A DNA stretch of 24,001 bases. Origin: a virus. Made by a program: the position numbers and the translations under genes. A model generated the notes under the pieces. It saw only the letters and a list, made by a program, of their open reading frames with translations. It ran no database searches and had not been told where the DNA came from. The DNA lies in the IMG/VR virus record IMGVR_UViG_3300046450_001838, positions 1-24,001 of that record, one strand, 5' to 3'. Shown here in pieces: positions 3,048 through 23,864 of the stretch (position 1 is the stretch's first letter; the number at the start of each line of letters is the position of its first letter).

Positions 3048-6000
3048 CTATGCCTCAAGGTCTCCGACAAGAATCCACTCATCTGTAGCTATCTTGATAC
3101 AAGTGCAAGACGAGTACTGCGCACGCAACTTCAAACCCGGTGTGTAGCGCAAGGTCACACCAGACCCAGCAACCATTGTGATTTCGCCAGCGCCCAAACC
3201 AATAACCTGAATCTGTGTACCAACAGCAAGGGCGACACCACTGTTTGGTGGAACTGTGACAGTCTGCGCCGACCCGTTGTTCATGGTCACATACTTGCCA
3301 CGGTCACCGGCCACAAAGGTGTAGGTGGTGCCTGTCTGCGTTTCACGGGCAAGATTGTAAATGATGTTACCCGTGACATCCACGGTAGAGCCATCCATAA
3401 CAGCAAACTCTGAACCTGCAACATCAAACCGGATCTTGTCCTCATCTGCGGACTCTTCAACCTGAATCTTCGTGTCGCTATCAGCATCTGAGATTGAGTC
3501 ACTACTAAGAGCACTCAGCTCTGTCTGGACGTAAGCCGTAGTGGCAATCTGTGTCGTGTTCGTATCTGCTGCTGCAGTTGGAGCAGCAGGAACACCAGTG
3601 AGAGTTGGTGAGGCAATCGGAGCGTAAGTGCTAGTTGCCGTACTGGTTGTTAGATAATCACCAATCTCTGTCATCACGAAGGCCGTTGTAGCCAACTGAG
3701 TCGTATTCGTATCTGCTGCCGCAGTCGGACCAGCAGGAACACCTGTGAGCGTTGGCGAGGCCAACGGAGCGTAAGTACTGCTCGCTGTGCTGGTTGTTAA
3801 ATAGTCTCCAACCTCCGTCATCACAAACGCTGTAGTCGCAACCTTGGTTGAACTGTCATTCGCTGCCTGAGTAGTAGCAATAACACCATCGGCCAAAACT
3901 ACGGTAGCCGCAAGAGCATTCTTAGACAACTGGAGGACGCCATCAATATAGACGCTCTTACCAGTAGCTAAAGCAACATGCTCTGAAGAGGTCCAGGCAT
4001 CAGTAGAATTAACCCAATTCCATGTCTTATCGGTAGCGCCCTTCAGAGTTAAACCACCGCCATCAGCGGTAGTGTCGGAAGGTGTAGCGACCGAACCAAT
4101 TTCTATGTTCTTATCGTCAACGGTGATTGTTGTAGAACTAATAGTTGTTTCTGTTCCATTAACTACCAAATCCCCGACAATAGTTACTGTGCCATCGGCA
4201 GCAATCGACATTCGTTCTGTGCCAGCAGTATCGAAACGAATGATGTTTTCGTCGGCTGATTCCTCAACCTGAATCTTCGTGTTTGCATCAGCATCAGTGA
4301 TCGAATCGCTACTCAGAGCACCCAACTCAGTCTGTACATAAGCGGTGGTGGCGATCTGGGTGGTATTGGTATCTGCCGCAGCCGTTGGGGCAGCAGGAGT
4401 ACCAGTCAAAGTTGGCGAGGCAATCGGGGCGTAAGTACTAGCCGCCGTACTGGTTGTTAGGTAATCACCGATCTCTGTCATTACGAACGCTGTGGTGGCG
4501 ACCTTTGCCGTGTTGTCGTTAGCCGCCTGCGTTGCTGCCGTAGTCCCATCGAAGAGTAGTTCGGCATTTCCTGTGGTTATAAGGGTTCCGCTCGCATTAG
4601 GGAAAAAGACAATCCTGTCAGCAGTAAGATCATTGTTGCCGTCATGCCCAAGTTCTACCCAATAACCGGTGTAGTGCCTCTCATTGGATAGCGCCCCGTA
4701 TCCTTGGGTAAAATCTGATCCGTTACCGATCCTTATGTCATGAGAGAACGATGTGTAGTAGTCGTCAATGACCATGTTCCGCTGAATATTGGCACTACCG
4801 GCATAACCGAGCCAGAACTCCATGTCACCGAATGCGTCGGCACCCTTTTCTTCGATGTTGACGCTGATCTGGCCATACGTTTGCTTCGTACTGTCTTCAT
4901 CATCGCCAGTGAACAGGATGCGTCCGATAGGGGAGTCATTCTCATGAGTGCCGTCACGACACAATTCTATAGTTGGTCCATAATTAGTAACGGTGGTGTC
5001 TGTGCTAGTTATATTTAGAAGCGCAGTAGCGGAAGAGGACAACGCAAGAGTCTTAGCGGTGATGTCTTCGGTAACTGCGAGATCGTTCCCAATAGTGACA
5101 TCGTTGGGGAGACCAACAGTTACGGCTGCTGTCTCTGAGCCAGAACCAGAAACCTCAATCTCGTTAGCGGTACCGGCAACAGTAGCAATGTAGTTACCAG
5201 AGGTATGAGTCCCAAGAGTCGCTGCAACCGTCAGGTCTACTGCGCCATCACCGGCATCATCATAGGCGGCTGTCAGACCAACGTGGGTGCCGTTCGTTGC
5301 AATCTGGGCACCCGTAATGTCTTGGACATTTTCCGTAACGAGAGCCAAATCGATAGCACCATCACCGGCATCATCGTAAGTAGCAGTGATGCCAGTGTGG
5401 GTGCCATCGGTAGCGAGTTGTGCGCCAGATACATCTTGTACAGCCTCAGTAAAGTCTGTGACTGCAGTAGAGGGAATGGCGATTGTTGTGTTAGCCGCAG
5501 TGGTCAGCCGGCCATAGGTGTCAACCGTATAACCAGGGACCTGGGTGGCACTGCCATAAGCAGCCGCAGAGACACCAGAGACAGTAAGTGTAAGATCTAC
5601 AGCACCATCTCCAGCATCGTCGTAGGTGGCCGCTATGCCCGTGTGAGAGCCATTGGTGGCCACCTGAGCACCAGCCACATCCTGAACTGCTTCAGTAAAA
5701 TCAGTAACAGCCGTAGAAGGAATAGCAATAGTGGTATTCGATACAGCCGTAAGATGGCCCTGGGCATCGGTCGTTAACGCTGCCACCTGTGTGGCGCTAC
5801 CATAAGATCCAGCAGAAGCTCCAGAGTCATCATGATTAATAGTATTACCAGAAATAGTTAAATACGTACCAGCAGTAAATGCCTGCGTACCAGTAAATTG
5901 GGTAAATGTAATATCATTTGTTCCAACAACATGAGGATCACTCGTTGTTGTGACTACAAACCCCTGTCCGACATTATTGGAACCAGCCAAAACATACGCC

Positions 6001-11193: not shown

Positions 11194-12525
11194 CTAAGAC
11201 TCGTATCCAAGAGACTTAATCAAATCCTGAGGAAGGAACAGATTGCCCCAGAATGACTCTGGCGCCTTATCTTCAACCGCCTTGGCGATTACTTCCTCTT
11301 CTTCGTCTGTCTCATCAACACTCTTTTTAATTGCACCAGCATTCTCAACGGTTTCAACACGAGTGTTGATCACATCGAGACTATTAGTGACTGATTTTGT
11401 TGACTCATCAACCTTAGCTGTGAGTTCATCCTGCTTCTCGGTCATTGCATTAATGGCAGAGGCCAGTTTCTCTTCAATAAAAGTTTCTACCTTTGCGGCA
11501 GAAGCCTCAGAATGAGAAGCTAGCTTTTCATCAATGACGGTTCCTAGAGCTGCAGTGAGTTCATCGATATTCATATCAATATCATCTCCTTCATTGGTTT
11601 CGTCTGCCATCAGCGCAATCTCTTCCACTTCGACAGTATGTTTTTCTATATCGTCTTCATCAGAATCAACAACAACATCCGACTCCGCATTAGCGGGATC
11701 GGACATCCATGTCAAGAACCTCTGAAGAAGTGAGATCTTTTCTTCCAACTCAGCGCCCTCAAAAGCCCCGTCAAGTGGCGGGGTTTCATCAGACGTAGTT
11801 AGAACGTCCGTATCTTCCATGTATGTAACCATATCAGAATAATTCTTATTATGCAAGTCTTTCACAACATTGCAGCTACAACCATCGTCTTTCACAATAG
11901 TGCAGTGGCATTCACCACAATCACATGTCGATCCAGAACATTCGGTTTTTTCAATTACATCATTCTTAATACAAACAATTGTATCACCAATTTTATTACA
12001 TTCAATTTCATCAATTGCGAGAGCGTAAGACAAGCCCTCATCGTCGGACTTGATCAGTGTTATGTTGGCAACTGGATTTGCTGGATTATCCACCAAACTC
12101 AACTCACCAAGCTCATACTTGGTAACCACACTAACGGGTTGACCACGAAACTTTCTTGTCTCGTCTTCCTTGCGTTCGAGAATTCGACCACCGATAGAGA
12201 ACGCACCAAGAGTGCCATCCAAAACCTTCTGCCAAGTATCCTCTGCTCCCTTCGAAATATAAGCAGAAACTTCCACACCTCTATAGATGTTTCCATTTTC
12301 GTTAATCTCAACGGGACGATGACCTACAGCTTTACCTACAGCCAAAGGCTGGTGCATCTCGCGTATATTGCCCTGCCAATCTTTAAATGCCGTCATAGAC
12401 GCGTCAAAATCAACGACGTCTCCCGACTTATCTACATTGTCAGCAGTAGCTACCCCAACCACAACCCTCTCTTCATTTTTAACTAAAGAGATAGGAAAGA
12501 TTAGTTGTAAATTTTCGCCATGCAT
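11194..12525 (-). CDS. Prohead protease fused to scaffold-like domain, with Cys-rich linker
   Basis: This 443-residue protein has three parts. Residues 1-158 match phage prohead proteases: VVVGVATADNVDKSGDVVD, MHQPLAVGKAVG (H58), GAFSIGGRI (S110) and YELGELSLVDNPANP (E138 or E141), giving a candidate His-Ser-Glu triad. Residues 176-218 hold nine cysteines, including CDCGECHC and CSC, an unusual likely metal-binding insert. Residues about 255-400 are acidic and helical (IDEKLASHSEASAAKVETFIEEKLASAI, shown in part as IDEKLASHSEAS), like a delta-domain scaffold. By family logic it cleaves scaffold and capsid N-termini during head maturation. It has a strong ribosome binding site (AAGGAGGCAATAAT) and its own promoter at 12557-12585. 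Confidence 0.8.
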   Translation of the reverse strand: MHGENLQLIFPISLVKNEERVVVGVATADNVDKSGDVVDFDASMTAFKDWQGNIREMHQPLAVGKAVGHRPVEINENGNIYRGVEVSAYISKGAEDTWQKVLDGTLGAFSIGGRILERKEDETRKFRGQPVSVVTKYELGELSLVDNPANPVANITLIKSDDEGLSYALAIDEIECNKIGDTIVCIKNDVIEKTECSGSTCDCGECHCTIVKDDGCSCNVVKDLHNKNYSDMVTYMEDTDVLTTSDETPPLDGAFEGAELEEKISLLQRFLTWMSDPANAESDVVVDSDEDDIEKHTVEVEEIALMADETNEGDDIDMNIDELTAALGTVIDEKLASHSEASAAKVETFIEEKLASAINAMTEKQDELTAKVDESTKSVTNSLDVINTRVETVENAGAIKKSVDETDEEEEVIAKAVEDKAPESFWGNLFLPQDLIKSLGYES

Positions 12526-20501: not shown

Positions 20502-20536
20502 GGGCGGTTCGGGCAAAAACCCGAATCGTCTTTTTT
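20502..20536 (+). terminator. Rho-independent terminator after the small basic gene
   Basis: GGTTCGGG pairs with CCCGAATC around CAAAAA, the stem extends into GGGC/GTCT by wobble pairs, and six T follow (20531-20536). A clear intrinsic terminator that isolates the small gene from the methyltransferase unit. Confidence 0.85.
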
Positions 20537-20565
20537 CTTCAGTTCCCCCATTTGAGCCATTCGTG

Positions 20566-20574
20566 TGATACAAT
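20566..20574 (+). promoter_or_regulatory. Extended -10 for the cytosine methyltransferase gene
   Basis: TGATACAAT is an extended -10. The next six bases (CACTTA) lead to GTGACATGG, so transcription is predicted to begin at or near G20581, five bases before the methyltransferase ATG and exactly on a GTG that opens the other long frame. No ribosome binding site is present. Confidence 0.5.
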
Positions 20575-20580
20575 CACTTA

Positions 20581-21618
20581 GTGACATGGCTATACACCCC
20601 CGACACTTATCACTCTGCTCTGGTATCGGAGCAATCGACCTTGGACTTCAAAGCGCACTCGGAATTAAGTCTGTGGGTTACGTCGAAAGGGATTCCTTCG
20701 CTGCGGCTATTCTCGTGGCGAGGATGGAAGAACAGGCAATGGATGTCGCACCTATTTGGGACGATATTGAATCCTTTAGAAGCACAGAGTGGAGTGGATG
20801 CGTGGACATCATATCTGCGGGCTTCCCCTGCCAGCCCTTTTCATATGCCGGTAAGCATGGAGGAACAGAAGACGAAAGATGGCTCTGGCCTTACGTTCGT
20901 AGAATTAGTCAGGACTGCGGGACGAGCCAGATCTTTATTGAAAATACACCGGGACTTGTCGAAAGAGGCCTTTATGAAATTCTCCACGATCTTGCCGAAA
21001 TGGGGTACTCTGCGGAATGGGGTCTGTTCAACGCAAGTGATGTTGAAGCGCCCCATAAAAGACAAAGGTTATTCCTTCTTGCCCACAGGGAGGCCATCGA
21101 CATCCAACCGTGGGTTAGCAGAGCTAATCTCTATACCCAGCTCAGAAAGCAAGGGATGGGCAACGCCTACAGCCAACATGTGGAAAGAGGTGGGACCGAA
21201 CATAGATTGGGAGAAGAGGAACACGAATCGGATTACCAACCTGACAGTGCAGGCTGTTTTGTGGCCGACACCGAATCCACAGGACAAGCCTCATGGACCC
21301 GAACCTCTAAAGGATGGAACAAAGAAGAACGGGCACAGTGGCAACAAAAACTTGGAGGGAGCAGCGTTGTGGCCAACACCGACAGCAAGGGACGCTGGGA
21401 ATTCAAGAAGGGCAACGGTCAAAAAGGATTCATGGACCTCAAACGATGGTACGACACTTACGGATGCTTCCCACCTTCACGAGAAAACGATGATGCGTGG
21501 AGACGATGGATTGAATCAGGTCTACCTGAACCCACGGTTCGTGGAATTACTGATGGGTCTGCCTATCGGGTGGACAGACTTCGGTCCCTTGGAAACTCAG
21601 TCGTACCACAGTGTATAA
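20581..21618 (+). CDS. Possible overlapping gene in the alternate frame of dcm
   Basis: A 345-residue frame (GTG start, +1 relative to dcm) stays open across almost the whole methyltransferase gene. It is Trp- and Pro-rich with recurring motifs: SYSFLPTGRP-like, GWATPTANMW, LWPTPNPQD, LWPTPTARD and, near the end, LNPRFVELLMGLPIGWTD. From memory, W/LPTP motifs and an NPxFVExLMGxPxGWT end occur together in phage proteins listed near or as C5-methyltransferases. The same DNA gives VVANTDSKGR in frame 0 and LWPTPTARD in +1. It may be a genuine dual-coded gene, or a shadow frame kept open by codon constraints of dcm, which would also explain the database family. Expression is unproven. Confidence 0.35.
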   Translation: MTWLYTPDTYHSALVSEQSTLDFKAHSELSLWVTSKGIPSLRLFSWRGWKNRQWMSHLFGTILNPLEAQSGVDAWTSYLRASPASPFHMPVSMEEQKTKDGSGLTFVELVRTAGRARSLLKIHRDLSKEAFMKFSTILPKWGTLRNGVCSTQVMLKRPIKDKGYSFLPTGRPSTSNRGLAELISIPSSESKGWATPTANMWKEVGPNIDWEKRNTNRITNLTVQAVLWPTPNPQDKPHGPEPLKDGTKKNGHSGNKNLEGAALWPTPTARDAGNSRRATVKKDSWTSNDGTTLTDASHLHEKTMMRGDDGLNQVYLNPRFVELLMGLPIGWTDFGPLETQSYHSV

Positions 21619-21677
21619 CAATGGCTTATAACGTTCTATTGAATAGATTAACAACAGAAACAAGGCCGGTAAGATGA
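20586..21677 (+). CDS. dcm: C5-cytosine DNA methyltransferase
   Basis: With the ATG at 20586 (a GTG at 20565 would add seven residues but lies inside the promoter) the protein has 363 residues, normal for the family. It transfers a methyl group from SAM to cytosine C5 in a specific DNA site. Motif I is LSLCSGIGAIDLGL (8-21), motif IV GFPCQPFS with catalytic C82, motif VI FIENTPG (118-123, ENT instead of the usual ENV), motif VIII HKRQRLFLLAH and motif X RLRSLGNSVVPQ (331-342). The target-recognition region (about 170-320) is divergent, with VADTES and VANTDSKGR stretches. It probably protects phage DNA from host restriction. Its stop overlaps the next start (ATGA). A second long frame lies within it. 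Confidence 0.93.
   Translation: MAIHPRHLSLCSGIGAIDLGLQSALGIKSVGYVERDSFAAAILVARMEEQAMDVAPIWDDIESFRSTEWSGCVDIISAGFPCQPFSYAGKHGGTEDERWLWPYVRRISQDCGTSQIFIENTPGLVERGLYEILHDLAEMGYSAEWGLFNASDVEAPHKRQRLFLLAHREAIDIQPWVSRANLYTQLRKQGMGNAYSQHVERGGTEHRLGEEEHESDYQPDSAGCFVADTESTGQASWTRTSKGWNKEERAQWQQKLGGSSVVANTDSKGRWEFKKGNGQKGFMDLKRWYDTYGCFPPSRENDDAWRRWIESGLPEPTVRGITDGSAYRVDRLRSLGNSVVPQCITMAYNVLLNRLTTETRPVR
21646..21677 (+). repeat. 32-base direct repeat, left copy
   Basis: This 32-base segment begins GATTAACAACAGAAAC and ends AGGCCGGTAAGATGA. It recurs at 23153-23184 with a single difference (A versus G). Here it encodes the last residues of the cytosine methyltransferase (LTTETRPVR) and the ATG of the next gene. 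Confidence 0.9.
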
Positions 21678-22228
21678 AATTGAACCTTGGTTGTGGAAAC
21701 CATTTCCCTGAGGGATGGATCAATGCCGACCTTGATCAACACTGGCACGAAGAAGGGAAAGATGTTTCTCTTGTGAGAGGCGAACCGCTGCCTTGGGAAA
21801 ACGACACCTTCGATCAAATAATATTATTTCTTGTATTGAATCATGTGCCGTTAGATGAGATGGATGGTTTCTTATCAGAAGTAGAACGAGTTCTATCTCC
21901 AAAAGGGCGCCTACTAGTTCTTGATGAAAATTATCCAGATGGTGTACCTGACCATAAAATAGATGGCGTTAGTGATGGTCCAGGCTACCGCAATATTGAA
22001 GCGTGGCATTGTTACACCGGGTCGTTAAACAAATTGCTACATCCTGTTTTTCCCAATATCGAAACATTGTGGGAAAATGCCAACGAAGATAAGGCCATAC
22101 TATTTACTGATCAGCAGTTCATTGAAGGCGGACTATTAGATTGGACTGATTCAGAGGGGCGGATATGGCCTATCAAGGGGCTTGGGCAAAATAGTTGTCT
22201 AATGATCTCTACAGGTCCGGCAATATGA
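21674..22228 (+). CDS. Class I SAM-dependent methyltransferase
   Basis: This 184-residue protein opens with the SAM-binding glycine motif LNLGCGNHFPEGWINADL (residues 3-20). Next come EPLPWENDTFDQIILFLVL, where the acidic post-I and motif II strands lie, and EVERVLSPKGRLLVLDEN. This is the layout of small-molecule or glycan/lipid methyltransferases of the Methyltransf_11 type. The acceptor is unknown. Translation is coupled to dcm (ATGA) and to the dioxygenase that follows (ATGA at 22225). The gene and its neighbour are bracketed by the 32-base repeats. Confidence 0.85.
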   Translation: MKLNLGCGNHFPEGWINADLDQHWHEEGKDVSLVRGEPLPWENDTFDQIILFLVLNHVPLDEMDGFLSEVERVLSPKGRLLVLDENYPDGVPDHKIDGVSDGPGYRNIEAWHCYTGSLNKLLHPVFPNIETLWENANEDKAILFTDQQFIEGGLLDWTDSEGRIWPIKGLGQNSCLMISTGPAI

Positions 22229-23154
22229 CTTGCCACCTACTCATAGAAGATGCTTCCTTTGAAGACCTCATGGATGATCCTGACCATTTTGTAAAGATAT
22301 TCAGAGAATCAAAACTTCTCATCTTTCCCGAACTGCATCTTTCGGAAGTGCAGAACGCTCAAGTACGGGAAGCTTTCGGATACGGCTTCTATGGTCACCA
22401 TGACGAAACTCACAAATTTTCTATAGATCGATATGTCGATAAGGCTGGACCTGAAGATCTGTTAGTTAAATGGCATTTGGAAAATCTATACGATCAATAC
22501 CCGCCAGATGCTGTTGGGTGGAACATGACAAAATTCGACTGTCCCAAAGGTAGTGGGAACACCGGATATGTCAACATGATAAACATATATTCTAAATTAG
22601 ATCAGGAGCATCAAGACTTTTATAACGACCTTTCCTTTATGCATTTTCTCAATATAGAAGATTCCGATGGCGTTACAGAGGTTTATAAGAAAATGGCTGC
22701 AGGAGAAACAATGATTTCACAACAGTCAATCCAGGCATCCAGCGCGAAGTCAGACAGTGTAACCCCGGTTAGAAAAGCAGTTGTTCCACACCCACTCACC
22801 GATGAATTAACACTCAGGTATGTGCCGGAGCCAAGTTTTTTGGTATTACCAGAGTTCCATGAACAAAGAGAAGTTGCTGACGCCGCAGTTAGAGAACTAA
22901 TAAACGATCCAGACAATCAGGTGTGGTGGGAATGGACTAAGGGTGACTATGTTTTTGCGGACTTGGTTGTCACAGCCCATTCAGTCAAAGGTGGATTTGC
23001 GGACGGAGAAAGAGTGGTCGATGTGGCTTTTGGTCTGATAGGGGAATACCCCAAACATCTTAGAGAGGAATGGTACCCCGGCGATCCCCGTTTCCTTCCC
23101 GAAAACTCTGGTGGATCCGGCGTTTCTCGGGGAGTAGGAGGCATTGCGATATGA
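22225..23154 (+). CDS. TauD/TfdA-like 2OG-Fe(II) dioxygenase
   Basis: The best start is ATG at 22225, overlapping the previous stop (ATGA), giving 309 residues; an upstream in-frame start at 22195 would overlap more. KLLIFPELHL near the N-terminus is the TauD-like opening. The iron ligands are H84 and E86 (KWHLENLY, HxE as in clavaminate synthase, rather than HxD) and H252 (VVTAHSVKGG). R263 (GERVVDV) is the 2OG carboxylate anchor. VVPHPLTDELTLRYVPEPS is the family's mid-region. It likely hydroxylates a small molecule. The C-terminal Gly/Ser-rich tail (about 295-309) is unusual. Substrate unknown; pairing with a methyltransferase hints at a joint modification path. Confidence 0.85.
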   Translation: MTCHLLIEDASFEDLMDDPDHFVKIFRESKLLIFPELHLSEVQNAQVREAFGYGFYGHHDETHKFSIDRYVDKAGPEDLLVKWHLENLYDQYPPDAVGWNMTKFDCPKGSGNTGYVNMINIYSKLDQEHQDFYNDLSFMHFLNIEDSDGVTEVYKKMAAGETMISQQSIQASSAKSDSVTPVRKAVVPHPLTDELTLRYVPEPSFLVLPEFHEQREVADAAVRELINDPDNQVWWEWTKGDYVFADLVVTAHSVKGGFADGERVVDVAFGLIGEYPKHLREEWYPGDPRFLPENSGGSGVSRGVGGIAI

Positions 23155-23184
23155 TTAACAACAGAAACGAGGCCGGTAAGATGA
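23153..23184 (+). repeat. 32-base direct repeat, right copy
   Basis: Matches 21646-21677 in 31 of 32 bases. It begins at the dioxygenase stop and ends with the ATG of the HNH gene. The copies lie 1507 bases apart (start to start) and are read in different frames, so coding constraint does not explain the identity. Confidence 0.9.
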
Positions 23185-23864
23185 CAGACAGAAGCGAAGA
23201 ATATCGCACAATTGTAGACGGATACAGCGCTCGTAAAAAACTAAAACGACCATCTTTTATTTCAGGTGATCTAGTTTATATACCGCTTCAAAATGGAAAT
23301 GTCGCTTTCACAGAAGCAGAGAACTATGAATTGGTAATCGGATGTTCATGGTCAGAAATGGCTGAAGGATACGTGCAAGGGCACTACAAATACTCTCCGA
23401 GACGAAAACTACATAAGTGGCTCTGGTACCATGTCAATGGCGAAATACCGAAGGACATGTGTATGGATCACATCAACAGAAACCGTTTAGACAACCGTTT
23501 AGCAAACCTACGTGTCGTCACATACAGCGACAATGCACGCAATGCAAAAAAGAGTGGCGGCACTTCAAAATATCCCGGCGTGTCTTTCTGCTCCAGAGAA
23601 AAAAAATGGCGCGCCTTTATACAAAAAGAATTAAAACAGTACTCGCTGGGAATGCATAAAACGGAAGAAAAAGCTTTTGCTGCCTACTACGCAAAAGCAG
23701 TTGAGCTTGGAGTAGAGCACAGCATCCCCATGGAATTTAAGCGGGTTACGCTACCAACCGACGGAAACAAAATCACCCCCAAAATGTTGGATTCCAAAGC
23801 CGACCTTGAAGCCCTAATCGATGGTGCTGAAATCTTTAGATTGAAAAAAGAAATGGGAGCATGA
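23181..23864 (+). CDS. HNH homing-type endonuclease with AP2 domain
   Basis: The preferred start is ATG at 23181 (MTDRSEEYRTIVDGYSARKK), inside the repeat and equivalent to the start at 21674; an ATG at 23151 would add ten residues. That gives 227 residues. The N-terminal half holds HKWLWYHVNGEIP, MDHINRNRLDNRLANLR and YSDNARN, the HNH_3 pattern with the conserved His-Asn residues. The middle is an AP2-type DNA-binding domain (SKYPGVSFCSREKKWRAFI, then SLGMHKTEEKAFAAYYAKA). A C-terminal helix follows. Such proteins are often free-standing homing endonucleases, which spread by cutting allelic DNA. The stop overlaps the next ATG (ATGA). It may relate to the repeat-bracketed cassette. Confidence 0.85.
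   Translation: MTDRSEEYRTIVDGYSARKKLKRPSFISGDLVYIPLQNGNVAFTEAENYELVIGCSWSEMAEGYVQGHYKYSPRRKLHKWLWYHVNGEIPKDMCMDHINRNRLDNRLANLRVVTYSDNARNAKKSGGTSKYPGVSFCSREKKWRAFIQKELKQYSLGMHKTEEKAFAAYYAKAVELGVEHSIPMEFKRVTLPTDGNKITPKMLDSKADLEALIDGAEIFRLKKEMGA

Follow-up and report, generated by a model that had tools for sequence, protein, structure and literature searches.

The C5-cytosine DNA methyltransferase gene analyzed here very probably encodes two polypeptides of a single enzyme, one in each of two overlapping frames; ribosomes starting at a pair of twin start codons would read both frames, and the two products would assemble into an active enzyme. This reading draws on two conserved open frames, the complementary motifs that they carry, selection that swaps from one frame to the other along the gene, a depletion of stop codons, and the twin starts. 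Judged by these features, we call it a nested two-polypeptide m5C methyltransferase, which appears to be a widespread and new form within a type of enzyme already known.

Results

Methyltransferase motifs are divided between two frames

The stretch examined (the window, 24,001 nucleotides of a virus record) encodes portal, protease, tail-fibre and ribonucleotide reductase proteins and, on the + strand, a frame 0 ORF of 370 aa (20565-21677) that is a C5-cytosine methyltransferase. The initial annotation had reported an open frame of 345 codons lying wholly within this ORF. We confirmed it as a +1 ORF (20581-21618, + strand, GTG start, 345 aa), fully nested within the methyltransferase ORF, and the pairs of peptides that had been quoted from both frames of the same bases were correct. 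The frame 0 product is called alpha and the +1 product beta. We place the start of alpha at the ATG at 20586, although the upstream GTG at 20565 is also possible. The features of the locus are as follows.

20502..20531, + strand: terminator-like hairpin upstream of the alpha/beta pair (consensus match only)
20581..20588, + strand: twin start codons GTGACATG, beta GTG at 20581 and alpha ATG at 20586 (paired starts across loci)
20581..21618, + strand: beta polypeptide, comprising motif IX and a VIII-IX segment that contains W-A/P-T-P repeats (phrog_1008, 4e-27)
20586..21677, + strand: alpha polypeptide, motifs I-VIII plus X (PF00145, 2e-33; TIGR00675, 5e-29; phrog_363, 1e-56)
20607..20639, + strand: motif I, LSLCSGIGAID, alpha
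20820..20843, + strand: motif IV, catalytic GFPCQPFS, alpha
20934..20954, + strand: motif VI, FIENTPG, alpha
20992..21021, + strand: conserved LPKWGTLRNG block, beta (frame-0 four-fold divergence dips)
21063..21083, + strand: motif VIII, QRLFLLA, alpha
21084..21525, + strand: spacer in alpha, facing the VIII-IX segment of beta (open in frame 0, unconstrained as protein)
21157..21171, + strand: WATPT repeat, beta
21262..21276, + strand: WPTPN repeat, beta
21370..21384, + strand: WPTPT repeat, beta
21526..21579, + strand: motif IX, LNPRFVELLMGLPIGWTD, beta (motif-IX HMM hit in the +1 frame but not in frame 0, iE 1.3e-5)
21576..21611, + strand: motif X, RLRSLGNSVVPQ, alpha (motif-X HMM hit in frame 0 but not in the +1 frame, iE 0.0023)

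Motifs I, IV (PC), VI (ENV), VIII and X of the C5-cytosine methyltransferases (PF00145) occur in order in frame 0, and the match of the alpha-frame profile to M.HhaI was limited to I-VIII. The earlier statement that frame 0 holds all canonical motifs proved incorrect, because motif IX is missing there and is encoded in the +1 frame; the full motif set is therefore that of the pair and not of alpha alone. Beta by itself had no Pfam or NCBIfam match, and the +1 profile, run against the PDB sequences, gave nothing but a chance hit. All 77 aligned beta sequences, the window protein included, matched phrog_1008.

The distribution of the last two motifs holds across relatives. In 17 actinophage enzymes motif IX is in frame with I-VIII, and the model made from these matched the beta frame in 149 of 164 loci and alpha in one, whereas the motif-X model matched alpha in 129 and beta in five of 164. 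The profile of the actinophage enzymes aligned, weakly, with M.HhaI so that the motif IX block was colinear with residues 271-307 (KLHPRECARVMGYPDSYK). In the single-chain actinophage enzymes McProf (452 aa) and Phinally (518 aa), a single frame runs through I-VIII, the PTP repeats, IX and X, and the beta profile matched McProf exactly between VIII and X (4e-14). Intermediate forms, split with partial overlap, are found in Firecracker gp6/gp5, ArV1 067a/b, Juno112 41/42, Nyxis, L068 and L116; in these, alpha stops after VIII and a downstream ORF (beta) carries IX and X. The presence of motif IX in beta, together with the in-frame module between VIII and X of the single-chain enzymes, identifies beta as a piece of the same enzyme. 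By this comparison beta appears to be the VIII-IX segment plus motif IX of the methyltransferase, and the pair one split enzyme.

The split is not uniform, since many actinophage loci have the PTP repeats in +1 and motif IX in frame 0. In loci of this type (L273, L275-L278, L281, L282, L286, L288, L290 and L293), a nested +1 ORF some 120-270 codons long holds the repeats, and motif X, as well as motif IX where detected, is in frame 0. This arrangement reads as a third way in which the parts of the same enzyme are shared out between two frames.

The openness of the +1 frame exceeds that of shuffled genes

When the synonymous codons of the methyltransferase were shuffled, none of 1000 and none of 5000 trials reached the observed +1 run (maximum 323). 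The +1 frames of ten other genes in the window contain 10-52 stops, and their longest runs are 36-111 codons. For some individual relatives, 19-35 of 1000 shuffles equaled their +1 openness; openness alone is thus sometimes weaker in single relatives, and the case rests on comparisons across loci.

Constraint changes frame along the gene

Differences at the three codon positions of frame 0 were determined in 39 independent pairs. In I-VIII they were.117/.074/.254 (neighboring genes used as a control,.110/.085/.273), whereas in VIII-X they were.348/.201/.254, and.223/.056/.049 in near pairs. In the alpha spacer (21084..21525) the ratio of divergence at position 3 to that at position 1 was 0.73, and 0.22 in near pairs. 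The reversal of the pattern coincides exactly with the region in which beta would be expected to serve as the coding frame. In the single pair of the window and L008 the signal is weak because the two have diverged. From these values the constrained frame appears to change along the gene, being frame 0 in I-VIII and X and +1 between them, and alpha and beta appear not to be equally constrained throughout.

Four-fold-site divergence (11 pairs) was.13 in I-VIII and.06 in the spacer, as compared with.31 in neighboring genes; frame-0 synonymous variation is thus reduced, the check that the initial annotation had proposed for dual coding. Local dips were seen at alpha residues 121-160, opposite the KWGxxRNG block of beta, and 321-340, opposite motif IX. 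The block itself (20992..21021) looks constrained on both frames.

Stop codons were counted by scoring each frame in loci retrieved through the other frame, with expected counts that rest on a codon-shuffle null and the third frame as calibration. In I-VIII the beta frame had one stop against 95 expected (alpha-retrieved loci). In VIII-IX the alpha frame had 25 against 122 expected (beta-retrieved loci), and all 25 were in L043 and L068. Third-frame stops were as expected in both tests. Beta is therefore kept readable where the alpha sequence dominates, and alpha where beta dominates, a pattern that would fit two full-length products and not a single frameshifted product.

Candidate twin start codons of the two frames

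In 67 of 97 loci, beta has an ATG or GTG that is no more than 5 nt away from one of alpha, as compared with 3 of 97 for the third-frame control. The paired codons are 2-5 nt apart, and the typical forms are ATGAATGAG (+4), ATGTGG (-2) and RTGNNATGG (-5); the twin start of the window, GTGACATGG, is of the last form. The pairs are mostly preceded by a Shine-Dalgarno-like motif across loci, and none was found before the twin starts of the window. The initial annotation had put the beginning of the predicted transcript at the beta GTG of the window; a consensus promoter scan returned nothing at this position other than the terminator-like hairpin just upstream, and an extended -10-like TGATACAAT was noted by eye at 20566-20574. 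The paired starts point to two products from one putative initiation site. It has been reported that AUGUG starts can give translation of both frames in E. coli (PMC9841429).

The nested arrangement recurs in phages, prophages and bacteria

Among the matches listed, beta was at the exact offset +1 in all 80 viral loci retrieved through the methyltransferase frame, which had been picked without reference to beta; the third frame of these loci contains 3-28 stops. The outcome named earlier as contrary to dual coding, an intact methyltransferase with frequent +1 stops, was absent from these 80 closest methyltransferase-retrieved loci. Retrieval through beta gave bacterial loci, mostly of alphaproteobacteria, with offset +1 in 80 of 80 (again among the matches listed), and viral contigs in which beta was always at +1 of the methyltransferase frame, a few having a broken or odd alpha (for example, L043, L056 and L068). 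No stand-alone beta, that is, a +1 relative lacking the methyltransferase frame, as the initial annotation had suggested seeking, was found among the viral and bacterial loci listed. The nested layout is present in isolated phages of Acinetobacter, Salmonella, Paenibacillus, Vibrio, Microcystis, Synechococcus and Pseudomonas, on a Leptospira plasmid, and in a second subfamily of methyltransferases that is divergent from the first (Escherichia phage ESSI2_ev129 and Pseudomonas phage Haboob). Loci fetched and annotated phage records together amount to hundreds of phages and prophages, among the matches listed.

Several loci depart from the common form. In L043 (2437-4027; same contig as L111) and L214 (3988-5319), which are from different sources, alpha is broken between VIII and X, motif X is an ORF of its own, and beta is intact (509 and 435 aa, respectively); these are possibly three-piece enzymes or cases of a decayed alpha. 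In L147, a third-frame ORF (2361-2930) with an HNH-like cysteine/histidine pattern occurs where the C-terminal part of beta is disrupted, looking like a homing-endonuclease insertion in the nested gene. Annotation also varies: in Acidovorax phage Alfacinha3 (L004, 2468-3671) the "cytosine-specific methyltransferase" gp46 is the beta frame and the true methyltransferase frame is unannotated, and in Paenibacillus phage Rani (L002) beta is annotated as "g50 Internal gene".

Discussion

We propose that alpha is the catalytic large domain, with motifs I-VIII and X, and that beta would supply motif IX and the VIII-IX segment, the site of target recognition in single-chain enzymes. Ribosomes would initiate at one or the other of a pair of start codons separated by 2-5 nt, so that the same mRNA is read in two frames, and the alpha and beta products would assemble into one active enzyme. 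Since each product begins at the 5' end and has to extend as far as the block at its own C terminus, both frames have to be open across the region of the other: beta would stay open through alpha I-VIII, and alpha through the VIII-IX segment of beta. Translation of both frames, their assembly and DNA methylation by the complex are what we infer from the sequences. AlphaFold modeling of beta alone (77 sequences) gave a pLDDT of 52 and no fold match, and in the single-chain model the VIII-IX segment was unfolded too (pLDDT <50 at 219-356). Because this segment lacks a resolved fold, it is from its position that we suggest it may be the target-recognition domain. There is no adjacent gene for a cognate restriction enzyme; downstream are genes for a class I methyltransferase, a TauD-type dioxygenase and an HNH/AP2 protein. 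Plausibly, the enzyme would act as an orphan phage methyltransferase against host restriction. We also lean toward a broader view, in which two-frame decoding from a single ambiguous twin start (AUGUGG, AUGNAUGAG or RUGNNAUGG) would be obligatory throughout the phage/prophage methyltransferase clade.

The initial annotation had posed a choice between dual coding and a database family that is a shadow of methyltransferase genes, in which case frame 0 alone would be real and the +1 frame a by-product of its conserved codons. Synonymous-shuffled methyltransferases do score against the leave-self-out beta profile (mean 37 bits, n=200), so part of the resemblance is shadow, but the real gene scored 117 bits and the best shuffle 75. 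Furthermore, +1 is the constrained frame between VIII and X, single-chain enzymes carry the same module in frame, and 10-29 stops interrupt the +1 frame of four ordinary plasmid C5 methyltransferases, none of them a close relative. The location of motif IX in +1, with none in frame 0, refutes a pure shadow unless motif IX is dispensable. We consider that explanation scarcely credible; dual coding stands, with a shadow component, and the second frame is real, yet it appears to hold a part of the same enzyme rather than an unrelated second gene.

Another possible hypothesis is that there is one fused product, in which I-VIII of frame 0 would be linked to the +1 segment through a ribosomal frameshift, a hop or an intron. 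Single-chain relatives exist, and the authors who described the cluster O mycobacteriophages considered a frameshift, a hop and splicing for Corndog gp6/gp7, leaving the choice between these and two products open (PMC4351075). RT-PCR of Corndog, however, revealed no splicing (PMC4351075). Since motif X is back in frame 0, two shifts would be required, and the openness of +1 through I-VIII (one stop against 95 expected), that of frame 0 through the spacer, and the twin starts would all be left unexplained. We think that a fused product is unlikely. Alternatively, both frames might be real and beta a separate regulator or anti-restriction protein; it has, when searched alone, no Pfam, NCBIfam or PDB match. 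This seems very improbable given that beta has the motif IX that alpha lacks in nearly all loci and corresponds to the position between VIII and X in single-chain enzymes. The two-polypeptide enzyme is the reading that we retain.

M.EcoHK31I and, named beside it, M.EaeI are the closest known enzymes; M.EcoHK31I has its beta encoded inside the alpha gene in a different frame, as the second polypeptide of the window lies in another frame, at offset +1. M.EcoHK31I is a two-polypeptide m5C methyltransferase with I-VIII and X in the large subunit and only motif IX in the small one (PMC3404938). The window is similar in having I-VIII and X in the large chain and IX in the second polypeptide. In M.EcoHK31I, however, the target-recognition domain is predicted in the large subunit, whereas in the window the VIII-IX constraint is in the frame of beta; moreover, the second ORF of the window spans nearly the whole gene and shares the twin start. 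E. coli and Enterobacter plasmid methyltransferases considered as EcoHK31I relatives were ordinary single-frame enzymes. M.AquI, a natural two-polypeptide m5C methyltransferase, is split after motif VIII (PMC3404938), and its beta has IX and X, unlike the window, where X is in alpha. Among the relatives of the window, AquI-like splits occur in L068, L116, Firecracker and ArV1, and an AquI-like motif X in the small subunit in L068, L116, L089 and L090. Corndog gp6/gp7 and its cluster O relatives have overlapping C5 methyltransferase ORFs with coding potential in both frames (PMC4351075), but the overlap is partial and motif X is in the downstream ORF. Thermus rnpA-rpmH and the AUGUG starts of E. 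coli share with the window an ambiguous twin start, one site serving two frames (PMC9841429); rnpA and rpmH are, however, unrelated genes and not halves of one enzyme. The family phrog_1008 is annotated just as "DNA methyltransferase", with no mention of a nested partner in the other frame. In the part of the literature covered, no published description of a widespread nested phage family was found beyond the cluster O paper.

The nested pair would explain a family filed as "DNA methyltransferase" or "hypothetical" as the missing half of an overlapping enzyme; annotation often retains one frame, and the second half is usually missed or mislabeled. It also bears on the cluster O question of two products, frameshift, hop or intron. 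The single-chain, split and nested forms constitute a natural series for the evolution of long overlaps, and the twin-start loci a conserved collection on which ambiguous initiation of translation could be tested. If the clade is indeed obligately decoded in two frames, few same-strand gene overlaps of bacteria and phages would be as long or as widespread as this one, with products that are halves of one enzyme and a constrained frame that switches along the gene.

Other genes of the window

The alpha stop overlaps (ATGA) the ATG at 21674 of the next gene, a second, class I methyltransferase-like gene (21674-22228), which suggests translational coupling. A TauD-type dioxygenase gene (22195-23154) shares the contig with two adjacent 2OG-Fe(II) oxygenase genes (371-1084 and 1155-1775, the second just under the Pfam cut-off). 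Three genes downstream of the methyltransferase is a homing-type HNH endonuclease with an AP2 domain (23070-23864). A weak glutathione peroxidase-like match (PF00255), just over the cut-off, was found at 1783-2598, and open frames of 190 and 211 codons (5205-5777 and 11851-12486) lie antisense to the tail-fibre and protease genes, respectively.
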